33,792 nucleotides of DNA. Source: a virus. The notes below the pieces were generated by a model. The model saw only the letters and a program-made list of their open reading frames with translations. It made no database searches and had not been told where the DNA came from. The stretch's first letter is position 1. Every line of letters begins with the position of its first letter. Positions 11,061-21,120 of this stretch are shown one piece after another. The DNA lies in the IMG/VR virus record IMGVR_UViG_3300030106_001215, positions 1 through 33,792 of that record; one strand, written 5' to 3'. Both the position numbers and the translations under genes were made by a program.

Positions 11061-12851
11061 ATGATTAAAGACGGTATTACAATCTCTCCTGAGAGAGACA
11101 ATCTTTTTGATGAGTTAGGGATCACTCGTCTTAAAGAGGCTTACATGATGGACGATGAGATCTCACCACAGGAGAGGTTTGCTTATGTATCTAGCTGTTT
11201 TGGTTCTAATAAAGATCATGCTCAAAGATTGTATGAGTACGCTTCAAAACATTGGCTTTCGTATTCAACGCCTATACTATCGTATGGACGATCTAAACGT
11301 GGGCTTCCTATTTCTTGCTATCTTAATTATATTGATGATAGCTCTCAGGGGTTAGTGGAGAATTTAAGTGAGACTAATTGGCTTTCTATGCTTGGTGGTG
11401 GTGTTGGCGTTGGTTTTGGCATACGTTCATCCGATGATAAGTCCACCGGAGTTATGCCCCACCTCAAGATGTATGACGCATCCAGCCTAGCATACAGACA
11501 AGGTAGAACTCGCAGAGGTTCTTATGCTGCTTATCTAGATATATCACATCCAGACATACTTATGTTTCTTGAGATGCGTAAACCAACTGGAGATCAAAAC
11601 TTTCGTTGTCTTAATATGCATCATGGTATTAATATATCAGATGAGTTTATGGGTGTTCTTGAACACTGCATGGTTAATCCATTTGCTGATGATTCATGGG
11701 ATCTAGTTGATCCACATAGTAAAGAAATACGTGATGTTGTTTCAGCTAAAGAACTGTGGCAGCGTATACTTGAGATGCGTATGCAAACAGGTGAGCCTTA
11801 TTTACATTTTATAGATAAGTCTAATGCTGATATGCCATCATGGTTAAAACAAAAAGGATTAAAAATAAATCAGTCTAATCTTTGCTCAGAGATTATTCTT
11901 CCTACATCAGAAGATAGAACTGCTGTATGTTGTTTGTCATCTGTTAATTTAGAATACTTTGATGAGTGGTCAAAAGATAAAATGTTTTTACCAGATACTC
12001 TGGAGATGCTAGATAATGTTTTGGAAAATTTTATTCTCAACGCTCCTGATACTATTCGTCGTGCTCGTTATAGTGCGAAACAAGAGCGCAGTGTCGGGGT
12101 GGGAGCACTTGGATTTCACGCATATCTACAGAGCAAAGGTGTCCCATTTGATTGTGCGTTAGCTAAGTCTCACAACATTAGAATGTTTAAACATATTAGA
12201 GAAGGTTTGGATCAAGCTAATAGAAGTTTAGCTTTAGTTCGAGGTGAGGCTCCTGATGCTATAGGTACAGGACTAAGGTGTAGTCATGTTATGGCTATTG
12301 CACCTAATGCTTCTAGCTCTATTATCATGGGTAATACTTCTCCATCAATAGAACCTTGGAGAGCTAATGCTTATAGACAAGATACTCTTAGTGGATCTTT
12401 CTTAAATAAAAACAAGTTTTTAGATAGTCTTATTAAGACTAAATGTGAAGAAGATACTAAGCTAAACTATGATCGAATCTGGTCTAGTATCATAGCCAAT
12501 GATGGTTCTGTGCAGCATCTTAGATGCCTGTCACCTGAAGAGAAAGAGATATTTAAAACAGCTATGGAAATAGATCAACGATGGGTTATAGAACACGCAT
12601 CAGATAGACAACAATACATTGACCAATCACAATCTCTTAATGTATTCTTTAGACCTGATGCTGAGATTAAGTACTTACATGCTATACACTACATGGCATG
12701 GAGGAAAGGACTGAAGACTATGTACTATTGTCGTTCAGAAAAGATTGGTAAGGCTGACAAAGTTAGTCGTAAGATTGAGAGACAGATTATTAATGAGTTA
12801 GATATGGAAGCATTGGCATCTGGGGATGAGTGCCTTGCTTGTGAAGGATAA
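11061..12851 (+). CDS. nrdA: Ribonucleotide reductase class I, large (alpha) subunit
   Basis: This 596-residue protein reduces ribonucleoside diphosphates to deoxy forms. Visible catalytic elements are C86 in GLPISCYL, the SNLCSEI site (N273, C275, E277), the partner cysteine in AVCCLSS (290-291), the radical-path tyrosines in TMYYCRSE (Y555, Y556) and the redox pair C591/C594 in the tail GDECLACEG. APNASSSIIMGNTSPSIEP is the conserved loop near the active site. It is about 165 residues shorter than E. coli NrdA because the N-terminal ATP-cone is absent, so dATP feedback inhibition is probably lost. The matching small subunit is at 13974-14957, separated by a homing endonuclease and two small genes. 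Acts in the cytoplasm as an alpha2beta2-type complex. Confidence 0.95.
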   Translation: MIKDGITISPERDNLFDELGITRLKEAYMMDDEISPQERFAYVSSCFGSNKDHAQRLYEYASKHWLSYSTPILSYGRSKRGLPISCYLNYIDDSSQGLVENLSETNWLSMLGGGVGVGFGIRSSDDKSTGVMPHLKMYDASSLAYRQGRTRRGSYAAYLDISHPDILMFLEMRKPTGDQNFRCLNMHHGINISDEFMGVLEHCMVNPFADDSWDLVDPHSKEIRDVVSAKELWQRILEMRMQTGEPYLHFIDKSNADMPSWLKQKGLKINQSNLCSEIILPTSEDRTAVCCLSSVNLEYFDEWSKDKMFLPDTLEMLDNVLENFILNAPDTIRRARYSAKQERSVGVGALGFHAYLQSKGVPFDCALAKSHNIRMFKHIREGLDQANRSLALVRGEAPDAIGTGLRCSHVMAIAPNASSSIIMGNTSPSIEPWRANAYRQDTLSGSFLNKNKFLDSLIKTKCEEDTKLNYDRIWSSIIANDGSVQHLRCLSPEEKEIFKTAMEIDQRWVIEHASDRQQYIDQSQSLNVFFRPDAEIKYLHAIHYMAWRKGLKTMYYCRSEKIGKADKVSRKIERQIINELDMEALASGDECLACEG

Positions 12852-12861
12852 GGAGATTACT

Positions 12862-13410
12862 ATGGAACTTACTGCTGAAATAGTTAGAGAATTATTACAC
12901 TATAATCCTAATACTGGAGATCTTTTTTGGAAAGAAAGACCTCTAAAATATTTTAAAAATGAAGTTGATGCACGTAAATGGAACAGTAGATATTCTGGTA
13001 AGAAAACATTTGCTTCTATCGTTCGTGAAAAAAATGGCAGGATTAAAAACAAAACAGGTGTAATTTTTAAAAAACATTATCTATCACATCGTTTAATTTG
13101 GCTACACTATTATGGTTATTGGCCTAAAGATGAAATAGATCATATTAATCACGATCCAACTGATAATAGAATAATAAATCTTAGAGAAGTATCTCGTTCT
13201 GAAAATCAAAAAAATATGAAACTTGGAAAAAATAGTACAACTGGACATACTGGAGTCTGTTGGGATACTAAAAGGAAAAAATACAGAGCACATATTGTGA
13301 TTGATTATAAATATATCCATTTAGGACGTTACGATACTTTAAAAGAAGCAGTAGAAGCTAGACATCTAGCAAATATAAATTATAATTTTCACCCTAATCA
13401 CGGTAAATAG
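12862..13410 (+). CDS. HNH homing endonuclease with AP2-like DNA-binding domain
   Basis: The start at 12862 is chosen because AAGGAG lies 6 bases upstream; an in-frame ATG at 12826 lies within nrdA. The 182-residue product has an N-terminal NPNTGDLFWKERP segment, then an HNH_3-type core with SHRLIWLHYYGYWP (H77), EIDHINHDPTDNRIINLREV (D93, H94, N102) and SENQKN. The C-terminal block TGHTGVCWDTKRKKYRAHIV through GRYDTLKEAVEARHLAN is an AP2-like DNA-binding domain. This is a standard freestanding phage homing endonuclease, sitting between nrdA and nrdB. It probably cuts an RNR gene of related phages to spread itself. It appears intact. Confidence 0.9.
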   Translation: MELTAEIVRELLHYNPNTGDLFWKERPLKYFKNEVDARKWNSRYSGKKTFASIVREKNGRIKNKTGVIFKKHYLSHRLIWLHYYGYWPKDEIDHINHDPTDNRIINLREVSRSENQKNMKLGKNSTTGHTGVCWDTKRKKYRAHIVIDYKYIHLGRYDTLKEAVEARHLANINYNFHPNHGK

Positions 13411-14957: not shown

Positions 14958-15216
14958 AGAACACTTACAAGAAGTAAAAATGTCTTATTGGAAACACTTT
15001 TGGTTTGCATTAAGTATGATTCCTTATCTATTTTTTGCTATGATATTTTCAATAATACATGCAATAGTGCCGGGACTTTTTTCAGAAACTACAAGTGCTA
15101 TTATTGATGAGTTAAGCTTTAAACTATCTAAAAATAAAATAGCTGATACAGTACCCGGTCAAAAAAGATGGGAGGATAAAGAAGCTGATATAGTACCCGA
15201 TAAAAAAAGTTCTTGA
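14941..15216 (+). CDS. DUF6356-like small membrane protein
   Basis: The start at 14941 is supported by AAGGAG 9 bases upstream, inside the nrdB 3' end; an alternative ATG at 14980 is in frame. The 91-residue product has a hydrophobic hairpin (HFWFALSMIPYLFFAMIFSI) then IHAIVPGLFSETTSAIIDEL. The HF.FA...IHA.VP.LF..T.S pattern resembles the DUF6356 family of small membrane proteins seen in Proteobacteria and phages. The tail is charged and includes a near-repeat, KIADTVPGQKRWEDK and EADIVPDKKSS. The stop codon overlaps the -35 box of the hsp20 promoter. Confidence 0.6.
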   Translation: MFGQTKEHLQEVKMSYWKHFWFALSMIPYLFFAMIFSIIHAIVPGLFSETTSAIIDELSFKLSKNKIADTVPGQKRWEDKEADIVPDKKSS

Positions 15217-15241
15217 CAAATAGGCTATCATAGCGTATAAT
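15213..15241 (+). promoter_or_regulatory. Consensus sigma70 promoter of hsp20
   Basis: TTGACA (15213-15218), 17 bases, then TATAAT (15236-15241): a perfect 12/12 match with ideal spacing. The predicted start near 15248 gives a leader of about 50 bases. It is the strongest promoter match found in the window and would use host sigma factor. Confidence 0.85.
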
Positions 15242-15297: not shown

Positions 15298-15720
15298 ATG
15301 TTTCCATATACAGAATCAATGGTAAAAAACTTTTTAGAAAACTCAATAGGATTTGATAGTCTACTATATGGTCTGAAGGAGCAGACAAATCAGTACCCAC
15401 CTTATGATATTGTTAAACACTCTGACACTTCCTATGAGATTACACTAGCACTTGCCGGTCTTTCTAAAGAAGACATTTCTGTAATACAAGAAAAAAATAA
15501 TGTTACTATATCTAATAATAAAAAAGTGGATGATGTAGGTGCTACTGTAGATAAAAAATATATACATAAGGGTATTGCTAAAAGACCATTTACAAAGAAG
15601 TTCTCACTACTACAAAATGCTATTGTGAGTGATGTGTCTTTTGAAGATGGGCTGTTAACATTACACATTAACATTGTAGTTCCTGAAAAAGAGAAACCTA
15701 AACAAATAGAAATACAATAG
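15298..15720 (+). CDS. hsp20: Small heat shock protein (Hsp20/alpha-crystallin family)
   Basis: This 140-residue protein of the IbpA type has the alpha-crystallin domain at about 38-133: YPPYDIVKHSDTSYEITLAL, AGLSKEDISV, then a beta strand NVTISNNKK, IAKRPFTKKFSL, and the signature VSFEDGLLTLHINI. The short tail ends KPKQIEIQ, which contains an IEI motif as used for oligomer formation. It would hold unfolded proteins without ATP, probably protecting host or virion proteins in the cytoplasm during infection. Hsp20 genes are frequent in marine phages. The gene is isolated as a single unit with its own promoter, structured leader and following terminator. AAAGGAG lies 6 bases before the start. 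Confidence 0.9.
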   Translation: MFPYTESMVKNFLENSIGFDSLLYGLKEQTNQYPPYDIVKHSDTSYEITLALAGLSKEDISVIQEKNNVTISNNKKVDDVGATVDKKYIHKGIAKRPFTKKFSLLQNAIVSDVSFEDGLLTLHINIVVPEKEKPKQIEIQ

Positions 15721-15726
15721 AACTAT

Positions 15727-15757
15727 GGAGGGGTGGGTAAAACCACCTCTCTCTTTT
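15727..15757 (+). terminator. Terminator after hsp20
   Basis: GGAGGGGTGG (15727-15736) pairs with CCACCTCTCT (15743-15752), 10 bp with two G-U pairs, around a 6-base loop. It is followed by CTCTTTT. It lies 6 bases after the hsp20 stop and before the true start of the next gene, so it separates hsp20 from the glycosyltransferase block. Confidence 0.65.
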
Positions 15758-15768
15758 CTGGAGAAGAC

Positions 15769-16539
15769 ATGAAAAAAGGACCAAATACAATTTACATAGG
15801 CTACGATCCTAAAGAACAGGTAGCCTACGATGTTTTAAGATTTACATTAGAACGAACTTCAATAGAGAATATTCGCATAGTGCCTATAAAAAAAGATATC
15901 TTAGAACTTAACGGTATGTATACAAGAACATGTACTACTGTTGATGGACAACAGATAGATGATATAGATAAAAAACCTTTTTCTAGTGAGTTTAGTTTTA
16001 CACGTTTTCTTGTACCAGCCATGAACATGTATGAAGGTTGGGCATTGTATATGGATTGTGATATGTATCCACGTATAGATTTTAATACTTTATTTGAAGA
16101 ATACAATTTAGACTATTATCCTTTATATTGTGTAAAACATGACTATGAACCGGGTGATGGTTTTAAAATGGATGGTAGAGTTCAACAAAACTACCGCAGA
16201 AAAAATTGGTCTAGTTTTATTTTATGGAATTGTAGCCATCCTCTTAATAGAAATTTAACACCAAAGGTTGTTAATACTCAGACAGGTCAGTGGCTCCATG
16301 CTTTTGGTTGGTTGCCAGATAAAGAAGCTGACATTGGTTCTATACATGAAGAATGGAACTGGTTAGACAATCATTCACCTGAAGAAATCGAAGCTAAGAA
16401 TGTACACTTTACCACAGGTGGACCTTGGTTTAAAGAATGGAACTCTAAAAGAGAAATTGATGGTAAATACGCAGCGGAGTGGAATTATGATTACACTTAC
16501 CTTGCAGGAACAGGACAGATAAAACCTTATGAAATATAA
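15769..16539 (+). CDS. GT8-like glycosyltransferase
   Basis: The start at 15769 (MKKGPNTIYIGYDPKEQVAY) is chosen because GGAGAAG lies just upstream; an in-frame GTG at 15733 sits inside the terminator stem. The 256-residue protein has the nucleotide-sugar entry motif IYIGYDPKEQVAY (8-20), a DxD metal site in YMDCDMYP (94-101) with SFTRFLVP before it, and NWSSFILWNC (146-155) and VHFTTGGPWFKEW (212-224) further on. This is the arrangement of GT-A fold, family 8-like transferases that use UDP- or GDP-sugars with Mn2+. The acceptor is unknown; neighbours suggest a surface glycan or protein. It overlaps the next gene by 11 bases. Confidence 0.75.
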   Translation: MKKGPNTIYIGYDPKEQVAYDVLRFTLERTSIENIRIVPIKKDILELNGMYTRTCTTVDGQQIDDIDKKPFSSEFSFTRFLVPAMNMYEGWALYMDCDMYPRIDFNTLFEEYNLDYYPLYCVKHDYEPGDGFKMDGRVQQNYRRKNWSSFILWNCSHPLNRNLTPKVVNTQTGQWLHAFGWLPDKEADIGSIHEEWNWLDNHSPEEIEAKNVHFTTGGPWFKEWNSKREIDGKYAAEWNYDYTYLAGTGQIKPYEI

Positions 16540-18910
16540 AGTAGTTACATGTTTTGATGAAACATTATTAAAACTTAATGGATCAAAACTAATAGAGCAG
16601 TTTGCCTCAAGCTGGCAACCTAGCATAGATTTTCATTGTTATTATTATAATTTAGATTTATCTAATTATTCTTTACCTAAGAAAAAGAATATTCACTATC
16701 ATAATCTAAATGATATAAATGGCTTCTCTGAGTTTATGGAGCGCAATAAAACTCATGATGGCACAGAAGATGGCAGTGTTCAATATAATTCTATCATTGA
16801 TGTTATATCAGAAGGACCAAAAGTATTTGCTATAAGTGAGGAAGCATTTAAAGATAACGACTCTTGGTTGTTTTGGTTAGATGTTAACTGCTGCACGGTA
16901 AGAGACATAAGATTAAATAGTTTAAAAGCCATCTTTAGTGATGACTCTAATGCATTGTCTCTGGCTTTAGTTGAGCATAGAAATCATTTTGCTGGTTTTA
17001 ATTTACAAAGTCAAGCTGTTGTAGAACTCCTTGCAGATATAAAAGGAGCTTATATTACAGATAGATTTACAGATTATAGAGAGTGGGGATATAACTTTAT
17101 ACTAGGTTCAATACTACCTCTATACCAAGCACGAGGTTTAAATTATAAATTATTTACAGAAAATAGTATTAGTGTATTAAATAATTTATTCGTAGATTTA
17201 CGTGACCCTGCATCTAGAAAACTTAGAGATGCAAAAGGTAATAGAATAGTTCCTCTATCTGATAAAGAAACATCACCAGATATCTTACCGGGAAGATACA
17301 AACAACTTGCAGATATAGTTAGGCATTACAAACCACAGACTATCTTAGAGACAGGAACATGGAATGGTGGTAGAGCTATAGAGATGTCTCTTGCTGCCTT
17401 TGAAAAGTCAGATAAAGTTCACTATATTGGTTATGATTTATTTGAAGATGCTACATCAGAGATAGATCAAGAAGAGTTTAACTCTAAAGCTCACAATACT
17501 TTAGCTGCTGTTGAAGCTAGACTAACAGAGTTCCAAGAGTTTGTTAAAAAAGAAAGACAAAAAGATTTTAGTTTTGAGTTAACTAAGGGTAATGTTAAAG
17601 ATGTACTCAATATTAAAGCAGATAATGATATTGATTTTGCTCTCATTGGTAGTGGTAATAGCTTCAATACTGTAGAGTATGAATATAATACTTTAAAAGA
17701 TATACCTGTTGTTGTTGCAGATCATTACTTTACAAAAGATGAAGCAGAAGAAATACCACCTGACATCTATCAAGGTGTTAACCAAGTATTTAAATCTGTC
17801 CTTACAAAAGAAGTAAAGTCAGATGAAGTACCAGATGTAGATGGGTGGGTTACATTTGATGATGCAGCCACCACTAGAAAATATGTGCTTCCTTCTAGTG
17901 ATAGAGTTCTTGGTGGTGGCACTACACACTTAGCTGTATTCTTACATGATCCTGATTTAAAGGATCTTCCAGAAGATGTTAAACGTGTTCCTATCGTAGT
18001 TCATCCTAGAGATTGTGTACCTAAAGATTATATTGTAAGTAATATACAAACCAATATAAAAATGATAGGAGAAGACAACTGGGTATCTAAACACCCCCCT
18101 CATAGAGAAGTGGGTATTGTTGTATCTGCCGGCCCTTACTTAGATTATGTAGCTCTAAAAGAGTTTATGCATATATATTTAGCAAAAGGTATTAGACCTA
18201 AAATACTAACTGTTAAACATGCTTATCCTAGTCTATTAAAGAATGGTATAATACCGTGGGGATGTATTGTTCTTGATCCTCGTTCAATAGAGGGTAAGAG
18301 CACACATAATATTGTACGTAAAGATTTGTTTAAAGATATAAATAAAGAAACTTTATTCTTTGTTGCTTCTATGACAGACCCCTCTGTTACTAAACATATT
18401 AAAGATGGTAACGGTAAACTATGGGGATGGCACGCCTTTACAGACTTCATGAGAAAAGAACAAGAACGAGGCACACAGATAGTAAATCAAACTGTGCAGA
18501 TTAATGAAGAGTTAGGTATACCTCAAGGTGCTACATTGATTACAGGTGGCACTTGTGCAGCTATGCGTGGTATTGGCTTAATGCATACTATGGGTTTCAG
18601 AGAGATACATCTCTTTGGCTTTGATTGCTGTCGTGAAGAACCAACGGCAGAAGAAAAGACAGAAACTACAGGTGATATAGAAGGTGGTGAAACACCTAAA
18701 CCTAAGTACATACAGGTTAATGTAGGAGATGTTACTTACTGGACTACAGGTGAGCTTTTAGCTATGGCTCAAGACTGTGAAAAAGTATTTGAAGATCCCG
18801 GCCTTGATGGTGTATTAGAGTTTCATGGTAAAAATACAATGATATCATCTTTATGGGATATTAAAAAGAGTAAGGAGAAACGTCCAGCGTTTAAAGATTA
18901 TTATGCTTGA
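16529..18910 (+). CDS. Three-domain fusion: GT-like, methyltransferase-like, DUF115 (Maf-like)
   Basis: This 793-residue protein has three visible parts. Residues 1-220 resemble a glycosyltransferase domain, with SWLFWLDVNCCTVRD in the place of a DxD site. Residues 250-440 resemble a class I SAM-dependent methyltransferase, with ILETGTWNGG (272-281) and IGYDLFED (300-307); the usual FIDGGHS element reads ALIGSGNS (371-378), losing the Asp and His, so activity is doubtful. Residues 525-770 resemble the DUF115/MptE-like domain of motility-associated factor (Maf) proteins, with VGIVVSAGPYLD (528-539) and GGTCAAMRGIGLMHTMGF then REIHLFGFDCC (673-701). Maf proteins transfer nonulosonic acids to flagellin in other bacteria. 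The combination suggests glycan modification of a host or virion surface protein. Domain calls are by motif. Confidence 0.65.
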   Translation: MKYKVVTCFDETLLKLNGSKLIEQFASSWQPSIDFHCYYYNLDLSNYSLPKKKNIHYHNLNDINGFSEFMERNKTHDGTEDGSVQYNSIIDVISEGPKVFAISEEAFKDNDSWLFWLDVNCCTVRDIRLNSLKAIFSDDSNALSLALVEHRNHFAGFNLQSQAVVELLADIKGAYITDRFTDYREWGYNFILGSILPLYQARGLNYKLFTENSISVLNNLFVDLRDPASRKLRDAKGNRIVPLSDKETSPDILPGRYKQLADIVRHYKPQTILETGTWNGGRAIEMSLAAFEKSDKVHYIGYDLFEDATSEIDQEEFNSKAHNTLAAVEARLTEFQEFVKKERQKDFSFELTKGNVKDVLNIKADNDIDFALIGSGNSFNTVEYEYNTLKDIPVVVADHYFTKDEAEEIPPDIYQGVNQVFKSVLTKEVKSDEVPDVDGWVTFDDAATTRKYVLPSSDRVLGGGTTHLAVFLHDPDLKDLPEDVKRVPIVVHPRDCVPKDYIVSNIQTNIKMIGEDNWVSKHPPHREVGIVVSAGPYLDYVALKEFMHIYLAKGIRPKILTVKHAYPSLLKNGIIPWGCIVLDPRSIEGKSTHNIVRKDLFKDINKETLFFVASMTDPSVTKHIKDGNGKLWGWHAFTDFMRKEQERGTQIVNQTVQINEELGIPQGATLITGGTCAAMRGIGLMHTMGFREIHLFGFDCCREEPTAEEKTETTGDIEGGETPKPKYIQVNVGDVTYWTTGELLAMAQDCEKVFEDPGLDGVLEFHGKNTMISSLWDIKKSKEKRPAFKDYYA

Positions 18911-19583
18911 ATATACAGAAGAATATAGTAGAGATAACACATCTCAAAGATATAAAGATTTATTAAAAGAATATGAGAAGTTACATGCACTTGATGAAGG
19001 CATGTTTAACGGTAGAAGTTTAGTAAGATTTGCTGGACCACTTGAACAAATAATTAACAAACATAAGTGTGAAACATTACTAGATTATGGTTGTGGTAAA
19101 GGACATCCTTATACAGATAAGTTTCATACAGTTCCTGACTCTGATTTTCTAGATAAACCAATCCATGAGTTTTGGGGTATAAAAGATATCACTTTGTACG
19201 ATCCCGGTGAAGAGGAGCATAGTAAGTTACCAACCGGTGTTTATGATATTGTAATATGCACTGATGTTTTAGAACATATACCACATGAAGATCTTACTTG
19301 GGTTATTGAAGAGATACTTAAATACTCTACAAATGTAGTATTTCTTAATATATGTTGTATACCTGCCATGAAACATTTTCCTAATGGTGAGAATGTTCAT
19401 GTGTCATTGTATCCTGTTAAAGAATGGCTACAATTTATTGCTAGATTATCTATAGATTATCCGTATCTAACTATCTATGTTTATGCAGATGACAAAGAAA
19501 ATGATAAGTATCATTTAAATGCTTATAAAATAATACCAAGACCTACAATTATACCACTCAAAACTAAGCCTGAAAAAGAATGA
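18903..19583 (+). CDS. Class I SAM-dependent methyltransferase
   Basis: This 226-residue protein has motif I LLDYGCGKG (59-67), a following acidic element YDPG (99-102), and YDIVICTDVLEHIPHED (114-130), the classic post-motif DVLEH of Methyltransf_11/23-like enzymes. It overlaps both neighbours by a few bases (ATG inside the previous 3' end, ATGA into the SET gene). The substrate is not evident: such enzymes in glycan clusters methylate sugars or small molecules. No DNA-methylase motif (DPPY/NPPF) is present, so DNA modification is unlikely. Confidence 0.8.
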   Translation: MLEYTEEYSRDNTSQRYKDLLKEYEKLHALDEGMFNGRSLVRFAGPLEQIINKHKCETLLDYGCGKGHPYTDKFHTVPDSDFLDKPIHEFWGIKDITLYDPGEEEHSKLPTGVYDIVICTDVLEHIPHEDLTWVIEEILKYSTNVVFLNICCIPAMKHFPNGENVHVSLYPVKEWLQFIARLSIDYPYLTIYVYADDKENDKYHLNAYKIIPRPTIIPLKTKPEKE

Positions 19584-19900
19584 CTGTATTAAGATATAAT
19601 AGATTTTATTATGATCCATTACCCAGTAATGTTAAGATTGATGAAAGTCCTATACATGGTCATGGCATCTTTGCTAAAGAAGATATTAAATCTAAAACAG
19701 ATTTAGGTTCTACTCATATTAAATATCCTATGATTGTAGGTTATATAAGAACACCTCTAGGTGGTTTTATAAATCACTCAGATACTCCAAATTCTTATTT
19801 AGTTGTATCACAAGAGTGGGATGATTATCTAATTTATAATATACTAACAGCAAGAAAAATATTAAAGAATGAAGAAATACTTATAGACTATGAGGTGTAA
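19580..19900 (+). CDS. Minimal SET-domain protein (putative lysine methyltransferase)
   Basis: This 106-residue protein carries the SET order: VKIDESPIHGHGIFAKEDI (18-36) as the SET-N strand motif, GGFINHSDTPNS (61-72) with the N65-H66 SAM/substrate pair, and EILIDYEV (99-106) with catalytic-type Y104. Pre- and post-SET cysteines are absent, so this is a minimal form, shorter than typical SET domains (about 130 aa). The protein ends two residues after the catalytic Tyr. It may methylate lysine on a host or phage protein; the target is unknown. It starts with an ATGA overlap, in one unit with the methyltransferase and glycosyltransferases. Confidence 0.75.
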   Translation: MTVLRYNRFYYDPLPSNVKIDESPIHGHGIFAKEDIKSKTDLGSTHIKYPMIVGYIRTPLGGFINHSDTPNSYLVVSQEWDDYLIYNILTARKILKNEEILIDYEV

Positions 19901-19911
19901 GGAGTAATATA

Positions 19912-20316
19912 ATGTTAGGAATAGCAGACAGTGTTATAGGTGTAGCTGGTAAGGTTCTTGATAAGTTTGTAGAAGATAAAGATCTCAAGACTAAACTAGA
20001 GGCTGAACTAAAACAACAGATGATTAGTCTTGATCTTGCTCAGACACAAGCAAATATAGAACAAGCTAAACACCCTTCTATCTTTGTAGCCGGAGCTAGA
20101 CCTGCCATCATGTGGATATGTGCTCTAGGTCTTGGTTGGCAGTTTATTCTTGCACCTATATCCTCATGGATTATTTTAACTTGGTATCCAATGGTAACAC
20201 TACCTATGTTAGAAACAGGTGAACTAACAAGTCTTGTTCTTGCTCTTCTTGGTCTTGGTGGTATGCGTACAGCAGAGAAATGGAAAGGTGTCCAAAGAGA
20301 TAATATGAAACAATGA
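19912..20316 (+). CDS. 3TM-type holin
   Basis: This 134-residue protein has an amphipathic N-terminus (MLGIADSVIGVAGKVLDKFV), a charged helix, and the conserved segment HPSIFVAGARPAIMWICALG, followed by hydrophobic stretches at about 64-82, 83-97 and 104-117. This pattern, with xxSxFVAGxRPxIxWxC, is typical of the holin of 3TMs family (PF11351 type) found in phages of Alphaproteobacteria and gene-transfer-agent-like elements. It would form inner membrane lesions to release endolysin or trigger lysis. It lies just before the cupin and small terminase, away from both cell wall hydrolases. AAGGAG precedes the start. Confidence 0.8.
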   Translation: MLGIADSVIGVAGKVLDKFVEDKDLKTKLEAELKQQMISLDLAQTQANIEQAKHPSIFVAGARPAIMWICALGLGWQFILAPISSWIILTWYPMVTLPMLETGELTSLVLALLGLGGMRTAEKWKGVQRDNMKQ

Positions 20317-20663
20317 AAGCAGGAAAAGTTTGGGGTGAGACACACTCTGTATTTAAAAATGGTGTATTTGAATTTCACCATATAAAATTTAATAAAGGTA
20401 GTAAATGTAGTAAACATAAACACAAGTATAAGTGGAATGGATTCTATGTTACTAAAGGTAAACTAATTATTAGAGTGTGGAAAAATGATTATAATCTTAT
20501 GGATGAAACACTTCTCACAGAGGGTGAATGGACAACGGTAAAACCGGGAGAGTATCATCAGTTTGAAGCTGTATCAGATGGTGAAGCTCTTGAATTATAT
20601 TGGGCTGAGTTTGACCATGATGATATTGAACGTGAGACAGTAGGAGAGGCTAGTGGCTCTTAA
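20313..20663 (+). CDS. Cupin-fold protein
   Basis: This 116-residue protein has cupin motif 1 (GSKCSKHKHKYKWNGFYVTK, with the HxH pair but without the usual Glu) and motif 2 (VKPGEYHQFEA, with PG...H). Three His residues could hold a metal. Small single-domain cupins include sugar-nucleotide epimerases, isomerase-like and binding proteins, and similar ones appear in marine T4-like phages. The nearby sugar-linked genes suggest a carbohydrate role, which is only an inference. It starts with an ATGA overlap on the holin and overlaps the terminase gene by 11 bases. Confidence 0.7.
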   Translation: MKAGKVWGETHSVFKNGVFEFHHIKFNKGSKCSKHKHKYKWNGFYVTKGKLIIRVWKNDYNLMDETLLTEGEWTTVKPGEYHQFEAVSDGEALELYWAEFDHDDIERETVGEASGS

Positions 20664-21120
20664 CGAAAAACAAGAAAAGTTTGCACAGTCTTACGTATTA
20701 CATCGTAATGCTACAGAAGCTGCAAAGAACGCTGGTTATGCTCCTGACTCAGCAGCCAATCAGGGCTACCGTCTTATGCAGAATCAAGAGATTGTTGATA
20801 GAGTCCACGAACTAGAGCAACAACTTGAAACAGATGTAGATGTTATAGGTGAATTAGAAAAACAGTATGAGTTTGCTAAGAACAACGGTCACTCAAATAG
20901 TGCGCTCAAGGCACTAGAGTTATTATCTAGAATACGTGGTGCTAATAGTGATGTTAATTCGGGGTTAGATAAAGACACACTAGAAACAGCTATCATTGGG
21001 TGTCTTAATACATTAGGAGAAGAGAAAGTTATTAATCTATTACAGAAATGTGACTTTGCAGGTAACATATTTGAAGAGGGGGATATAGAAGAGGATGCCA
21101 AGGAAATGGAAGGTGTATGA
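20653..21120 (+). CDS. terS: Terminase small subunit
   Basis: The GTG start at 20653 has AGGAG 5 bases upstream. The 155-residue protein begins ALNEKQEKFAQSYVLHRNAT then EAAKNAGYAPDSAANQGYRL, the helix-turn-helix domain of Terminase_2 family small subunits, which recognise the packaging site. A central helical region (VHELEQQLETDVDVIGELEK) and a Leu-rich segment would form the oligomer ring; the tail is acidic. In most phages the large subunit follows directly, but here the next genes are a 44-residue ORF and a terminator, so the ATPase must lie outside the window. Confidence 0.8.
   Translation: MALNEKQEKFAQSYVLHRNATEAAKNAGYAPDSAANQGYRLMQNQEIVDRVHELEQQLETDVDVIGELEKQYEFAKNNGHSNSALKALELLSRIRGANSDVNSGLDKDTLETAIIGCLNTLGEEKVINLLQKCDFAGNIFEEGDIEEDAKEMEGV

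Follow-up and report, generated by a model that had tools for sequence, protein, structure and literature searches.

Positions 1 to 33,792 of the virus record IMGVR_UViG_3300030106_001215 in IMG/VR, the whole stretch of 33,792 nucleotides analysed here and termed the window, include on the plus strand one open frame (16529..18910, ATG start) that encodes a three-domain fusion protein of 793 amino acids. The N-terminal part is a GT-A glycosyltransferase-fold domain (residues 1–235, 16529..17233), as evidenced by structure matches and a hidden Markov model (HMM) match to free-standing phage genes. It is followed by a methyltransferase-fold domain of the COMT / Methyltransf_24 type (residues 236–460, 17234..17908; fold matches and family HMM) and a C-terminal DUF115 / MptE-like domain (residues 461–793, 17909..18907; PF01973 and fold matches). 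The fusion gene is flanked on the same strand by a glycosyltransferase gene, GT268 (phrog_28018; 15733..16539), whose DxD motif reads DCD and which overlaps it by 11 bases, and by a class I methyltransferase gene, MT226 (18903..19583; PF13489, E 1.4e-6), overlapping by 8 bases. The GT268 open reading frame (ORF) begins with GTG at 15733, although ATG at 15769 seems the likelier start.

This three-gene row is fixed among relatives. GT268 lies upstream on the same strand at all 133 loci with more than 1 kb of flank, within 60 bases of the fusion at 116 and with a gap of 70–526 bases at 17, and its DxD is retained in 136 of 136 alignments covering the site. MT226 is directly downstream at every one of the 116 loci with more than 900 bases of flank and retains D61-Y-G and G65-K in 132 of 132 copies.

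We conclude that ORF 16529–18910 is one intact gene with three domains. The sequence-only reading had described one protein that appeared to combine three domain types. A join of separate genes by sequencing error is ruled out, because the fusion, which also occurs in other viral genomes, is full length in a single frame at 133 of 148 related IMG/VR loci (near-copies included). Twelve of the 15 exceptions end at a locus edge, two (L139 and L150) come from a single contig, and L087 failed the ORF filter although its alignment runs from end to end. In that contig, IMGVR_UViG_3300030109_000446, a short break splits the match to the fusion gene in two, which may reflect a frameshift or a genuine disruption of the gene. 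A first IMG/VR scan gave 450 stretches encoding a relative, and among the best 80 of these, which were kept, all matches were stop-free and 79 covered the whole protein.

Folds and active-site residues of the three domains

The three domain types named from the sequence were borne out at fold level by Pfam together with AlphaFold2 models compared by VIA-align. A Pfam scan gave no match for residues 1–230, PHROGs had no family for the window fusion protein, and a PDB sequence search with the protein alone returned one weak match (3aag, a general glycosylation pathway protein; E 0.17, residues 496–604). PDB searches with profiles gave just weak matches, at E 0.08 or worse: to L-asparaginases over a short part near the C terminus, and to one fragment of UGGT. 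A model of the whole protein, built by AlphaFold2 on a 29-row alignment, has a predicted local distance difference test score (pLDDT) of 78.2 and a predicted template modelling score (pTM) of 0.48. Its leading Foldseek matches are the Magnetospirillum Maf protein 5mu5 (1.7e-7), O-methyltransferases, the glycosyltransferase GlyE, archaeal HPPK/MptE 8sd5 (1.9e-5) and GT6 enzymes. By VIA-align, residues 236–778 match Maf 5mu5 residues 31–503 with Z 16.8 and a root-mean-square deviation (rmsd) of 14.2, indicating that the domains do not share one orientation.

Residues 1–240 adopt the GT-A fold of domain 1 of PBCV-1 A064R (2p6w; Z 14.6, 174 aligned residues, rmsd 3.0; VIA-align on the AlphaFold2 model), and Foldseek links this part to GT6 enzymes; no Pfam match to GT6 was found for the fusion, the likeness being at the level of the fold. 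By alignment, residues 118–120 form a degenerate DxD site, Asp-Val-Asn (16880..16888, plus strand), so that the window protein has neither the DxD of metal-dependent GT-A enzymes nor the NxN of metal-independent GT6 enzymes of the BoGT6a type, and its His-Asp position, 187–188, is Gly-Tyr. Among 66 non-redundant fusion members, on which the residue counts here and below are based, the site is DxD in 21, NxN in nine (NTN, one clade) and neither in 36. L100 is one example of a member with DxD. Position 188 is Asp in 30 members, and 30 of the 36 without DxD or NxN have also lost D188. Residue 118 is nonetheless D, N or E in every member, and R233 and R239, near the end of the domain, are invariant.

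In a tree of the methyltransferase and DUF115 part, the NxN rows form one group (support 100/100) and the 36 rows without DxD or NxN fall in a group of 38 that includes two DxD rows, L070 and L075. DxD is presumably the ancestral state, because free-standing GT-A relatives carry it, and with this tree rooted at its midpoint it may have been lost a single time in the window's lineage. The ratio of nonsynonymous to synonymous substitution rates (dN/dS) of the GT-A part is 0.023–0.249 over 52 close pairs and 0.023–0.138 in 33 close pairs without DxD or NxN, the pairs not being independent. Between the window and L004 it is 0.094 for the GT-A, 0.214 for the methyltransferase and 0.132 for the DUF115 part; synonymous sites are near saturation in some pairs and one methyltransferase value is undefined. 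Such purifying selection on a GT-A domain without DxD indicates that the altered domain has been kept, not discarded. According to an excerpt of PMC3961637, the GT-A enzyme BoGT6a, in which NXN replaces DXD, is active without metal, two basic residues near its C terminus holding the diphosphate. By analogy with these residues, the invariant R233 and R239 make it possible that the altered domain still binds a sugar nucleotide. The fusion family resembles GT6 enzymes including BoGT6a in the GT-A fold and, in one clade, in NxN, unlike the window protein itself with its Asp-Val-Asn and lost His-Asp.

The Methyltransf_24 match in the window protein (residues 273–390, E 0.013) lies under the family cut-off, with the same family found in 23 of 29 non-redundant relatives at E 0.05 (best 3.2e-5), and residues 240–476 of the model are a COMT-type methyltransferase with Z about 15 (VIA-align). 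The S-adenosylmethionine (SAM)-binding motif E/DxGxxxG of this type is present as ETGTWNGG (residues 274–281, 17348..17371, plus strand), in which E274, G276, W278, N279 and G281 are invariant in all 66 members, as are D303 and D398. A second motif has changed. Where an unfused relative described below has DGGHS, the fused family has G-S/G-G-N/D-S by alignment, in the window GSGNS (residues 374–378, 17648..17662, plus strand); position 374 is G in all 66 members and position 377 is N in 60 and D in six, as against D and H in the unfused gene. None of the 66 fused copies thus has the Asp and His of the DGxHS motif, which we take to be the metal-site residues of COMT-type methyltransferases.

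PF01973 MptE-like, which we take to be the former DUF115 / Maf_flag10 family, matches residues 505–702 (E 4.7e-12, 46.4 bits against a cut-off of 34.6) and was matched in all 29 non-redundant relatives at E 0.05. A chance match is ruled out by this score together with the fold matches. Folded alone on 66 rows (pLDDT 84.7, pTM 0.81), the DUF115 part has as best fold Maf 5mu5 residues 244–503 (Z 18.4) and as second archaeal MptE/HPPK 8sd5 (Z 16.0), followed by SteA (11.9), thiamin pyrophosphokinases (10.2 and 9.7) and sialyltransferases (8.0–9.7; CstII 8.5). The domain thus has the PF01973 profile, the fold of the central CstII-like DUF115 domain of Maf and the MptE fold. R494, D495, H564, D583, R585, H593, S614, D617, H635 and GGT at 673–675 are kept in all 66 members. 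The assignment to the Maf type, as first read from the sequence, is therefore upheld insofar as Maf is the best fold, but it is not the sole reading, since PF01973 also covers the pterin enzyme MptE.

Besides the best DUF115 fold match, the fusion shares with Maf 5mu5 the PF01973 domain, for which an excerpt of PMC11339370 uses the name Maf_flag10 (pfam01973), and may share the pairing of that domain with a methyltransferase-like Rossmann domain. In the same excerpt, the N-terminal domain of Maf is described as a Rossmann fold that has degenerated, weakly similar to methyltransferase motifs and of unclear function, and the centre as CstII-like. Unlike Maf, the fusion lacks a C-terminal helical domain, ending at residue 793, 15 residues past the match to Maf 503 of a 632-residue chain. 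It also has an added GT-A domain, an intact SAM motif, and phage glycan genes around it instead of flagellin genes.

Distribution and unfused relatives

The fusion family is a widespread protein of uncultured ocean viruses. A second scan, with a divergent member as query, gave 69 loci, one of them known already, and the longest contigs carrying the fusion are 50–63 kb. The sequence-only reading, which knew of no described phage enzyme with this layout, agrees with a tblastn search in which the window protein had no match in 50,697 GenBank phage records or 72,556 plasmids, sets from which records very close to the window may be absent; the divergent member gave two weak matches to phage records, in the GT-A part only. 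A 714-residue protein of an uncultured Caudovirales phage, A0A6J7X5Q0 in BFVD, is probably related over its whole length, if distantly (Foldseek E 2.5e-51; 817 columns at 26% identity), and is labelled just 'methyltransferase domain containing protein'. No such DUF115 phage enzyme was found in titles and abstract starts of the open-licence PMC literature: each domain is known, and the layout, its spread, the unfused counterpart and the stepwise motif loss were not found there.

The closest isolates by DNA polymerase are phages of SAR11 and roseobacters, the polymerase of the window being nearest to Pelagibacter phages HTVC103P, HTVC104P and HTVC115P (45–46% identity). In the parts of HTVC103P and HTVC115P examined, the primase-polymerase row is common to them and the window, the annotation shows nothing like the cassette and the DUF115 HMM matched none of the ORFs. 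A cellular origin was considered and rejected: the sole genome-contig match was a contig binned as Sneathiella that shares a 100% identical stretch with an IMG/VR contig of equal length, and within its class two of 289 genomes matched, by that contig and by one DUF115-only gene.

In one viral contig, L170, every part of the fusion is encoded by its own gene, and these genes lie together between those for the major capsid protein and a head-tail adaptor. Reading from the portal end, the capsid gene (phrog_9953, E 2.7e-86) is followed by a pair of MptE-like genes (PF01973; 70.7 and 83.2 bits) and then by a homologue of GT268 (phrog_28018, E 7e-19; Glyco_transf_8), a GT-A gene (HMM E 3.8e-6) and a gene of the Methyltransf_24 family (60.1 bits). 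After one unknown gene comes an adaptor of the SU10 type, which scores 27.8 bits where the cut-off is 27 (phrog_6013 tail protein). The GT-A gene has an intact DAD and Thr-Asp for His-Asp, and the methyltransferase, which the family HMM of the fused domain matches at E 1.9e-36 (199 ORFs), has an intact DGGHS. Two of the L170 proteins had no match among phage records.

Comparable clusters of separate genes, with GT268 homologues joined variously by methyltransferase, MptE-like, GT-A or GT29-family genes, occur in isolates, resembling the window cassette except that nothing is fused. Free-standing GT-A relatives were found in Pelagibacter phage Mosig (E 1.9e-14 among 907 ORFs), where it immediately precedes a homologue of GT268, and in podovirus MW202713 (E 4.4e-10, same set), before a methyltransferase and near terL; both have DxD and His-Asp. 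In Caulobacter phage CcrSC, whose host is the laboratory strain C. crescentus/vibrioides CB15, a short MptE-like gene, gp169, scores 31.9 bits, slightly less than the cut-off of 34.6. It clusters with homologues of GT268 and MT226, the GT268-type gene being gp172 and the methyltransferase gene gp173. In a cluster of this type in Stenotrophomonas phage DLP_6, a gene annotated as hypothetical (L155:6635-7423) has a partial match to the GT29 sialyltransferase family (PF00777, E 1.2e-7, residues 25–73). Synechococcus phage S-SCSM2R has, right before a GT268 homologue, an annotated carbohydrate phosphorylase of similar length to the fusion (L157:5623-7998), which gave no match to the three domain HMMs.

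Possible functions of the fusion

We posit, tentatively and with somewhat less than even confidence, that the fusion is a Maf-like enzyme that transfers glycans, that its companion domains are partly degenerate, and that the virion is its most likely target. The basis for this is the predicted folds, the residues kept and lost, the fixed three-gene row and one unfused cassette in a head-gene row, from which we infer activities, sugar, acceptor and target. The core would be Maf-like, a methyltransferase-fold domain and then DUF115, with an extra GT-A domain in front. DUF115 would be the working transferase, because it is the sole domain in which no motif loss was seen, and would use a nucleotide-activated sugar supplied by the host, possibly an acidic one linked to cytidine monophosphate (CMP). 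With two motif residues gone from the methyltransferase-fold domain and, in the lineage of the window, the metal site gone from the GT-A domain, the main role of both may now be to bind the acceptor glycan or to keep the complex assembled. GT268 and MT226, both motif-intact, would supply ordinary glycosyl and methyl transfer, such that the joint product of the three genes could be a short glycan carrying methyl groups, attached most likely to a virion protein as the particle is assembled. Decoration of the virion is favoured because of the head-gene row of L170 and the position of the cassette between the Hsp20 and the holin and terminase genes. Glycosylated virions have been reported for mycobacteriophages, as cited in an excerpt of PMC12619734.

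Several observations weigh against this proposal. The pTM of the whole-protein model is just 0.48, and the methyltransferase domain may still work in another way, since its SAM motif and D303 are invariant. The DUF115 domain is 'unaltered' in the sense of being conserved within this family; MptE is almost as near to it in fold as Maf (Z 16.0 against 18.4), and SteA and thiamin pyrophosphokinases rank above or level with sialyltransferases. The cassette among head genes is known from L170 alone, scans with three L170 genes, of a kind that reaches close relatives only, having returned just that locus. In a fused 57-kb relative, the capsid gene lies in another module than the cassette, and relatives of the flanking genes also occur by tail and lysis genes, among tRNAs, or beside ribonucleotide reductase (RNR) genes. 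Lastly, the ORFs scanned, namely 26 of the 49 listed for the window and 15 of the 57-kb relative (some of which are counterparts of window genes), included no recognisable gene for sugar-nucleotide synthesis, so that the supply of donor is assumed.

The cassette could instead alter the host surface, lipopolysaccharide or capsule, late in infection, for example to stop virions from binding debris or to exclude other phages. We regard this as the main rival, less likely than not but a realistic prospect. Temperate-phage glycosyltransferases that change host serotype are known, according to an excerpt of PMC12619734, and glycan clusters with an MptE-like, GT29-family or sulfotransferase partner are present in several unrelated phages. 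The row of genes, however, adjoins the holin and terminase genes, the parts in L170 lie between capsid and adaptor genes, and no polymerase- or flippase-type family match was obtained among the ORFs scanned (by family scans, with no membrane-segment prediction). Of the targets first envisaged, surface glycans and virions both stand as open options.

It is improbable that all three domains are active in a single-chain assembly line with a metal-free GT-A domain, in the manner of PBCV-1 A064R, which an excerpt of PMC9614988 describes as a GT-GT-MT protein that finishes the capsid glycan with all domains active. Both are virus-encoded chains that join glycosyl- and methyltransferase domains and begin with a GT-A fold, but A064R has a second glycosyltransferase, a C-terminal methyltransferase and no DUF115, whereas the order in the fusion is GT-MT-DUF115. 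The metal-free activity of BoGT6a, the nine NTN members, the invariance of R233 and R239, the D, N or E at residue 118 and the purifying selection on the GT-A domain are all consistent with such activity. On the other side are the DVN and missing His-Asp of the window, the loss of the methyltransferase motif Asp and His from every member, and the motif-intact glycosyltransferase and methyltransferase genes next door.

A still smaller chance attaches to DUF115 being no glycosyltransferase but a pyrophosphokinase like MptE, with a small molecule or a modified DNA base as its substrate. The Pfam family is named after MptE, 8sd5 is the second fold match, SteA and the thiamin pyrophosphokinases score at or above sialyltransferases, and in L170 the free-standing methyltransferase has a match (E 1.6e-9) to phrog_2675, a family named DNA methyltransferase. 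That same protein scores far better against Methyltransf_24, however, and Maf both scores higher than MptE and may share the two-domain layout. 8sd5, the archaeal 6-hydroxymethyl-dihydropterin pyrophosphokinase, is a stand-alone protein of about 215 residues, unlike the fusion, whose partners are glycosyl- and methyltransferases; the ORFs scanned included no recognisable gene for pterins or base modification. Glycosylation of host flagellin, as by cellular Maf proteins, is highly improbable, the likeness of DUF115 to Maf being all that speaks for it, while no flagellar gene was found among the ORFs scanned, the C-terminal helical domain of Maf is missing, and the nearest isolates by polymerase infect SAR11, which to our knowledge lacks flagella, and roseobacters.

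Returning to the glycan-transfer proposal, its evolutionary extension is doubtful but would connect the phage and cellular proteins. Maf and the phage family may both go back to a methyltransferase that became joined to a DUF115 enzyme, then lost its activity and turned to acceptor binding; the phage family would have repeated this with the GT-A domain, to coat its own virions with sugar. On this reading, the decay of the GT-A domain could be followed in stages among living relatives, from DxD with His-Asp through DPx with His-Asp to neither. The family is widespread in viral metagenomes and, with its unfused relatives, spans a natural progression from separately encoded enzymes to a fusion whose active sites are in part lost, and as such is a testable case of enzymes turned into binding parts. 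It may also hold a clue to what the unexplained N-terminal domain of Maf once was, and is a candidate system for glycosylated virions in marine phages.

Other features of the locus

The cassette is preceded by an Hsp20 gene (15298..15720, plus strand), present at 101 of 128 loci with enough flank, and followed further downstream by the terminase small subunit gene (20653..21120, plus strand; PF03592, E 1.8e-15), present at 87 of 87. Corresponding figures for other genes are 86/105 for holin, 21/98 for cupin, 11/110 for SET and 10/122 for RNR beta; presence was scored by tblastn at E 1e-4, at which divergent copies may be missed.

A promoter-like site identical to the sigma-70 consensus at 12 of 12 positions (TTGACA-17-TATAAT; 15213..15241, plus strand) lies before Hsp20 and the cassette. 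Among 58 non-redundant members, the best such site in the 2.2 kb upstream is perfect in 22 and matches at 11 of 12 positions in 23, as against one and four after single-base shuffling, and HTVC103P and HTVC115P likewise have exact sites a short way upstream of Hsp20. A terminator-like hairpin at 15727–15752, between the Hsp20 stop and the likely GT268 ATG at 15769, falls within the expected single transcript, where attenuation is possible.

Directly after MT226 is a gene for a small SET-domain protein (19580–19900; PF00856, E 3.3e-9), and a cupin protein (20313–20660; PF07883, and phrog_7851, named cysteine dioxygenase) is encoded between holin and the terminase small subunit. Upstream, an HNH/AP2 homing-endonuclease-like gene (12826–13410) lies between RNR alpha and beta and overlaps the end of the RNR alpha ORF.

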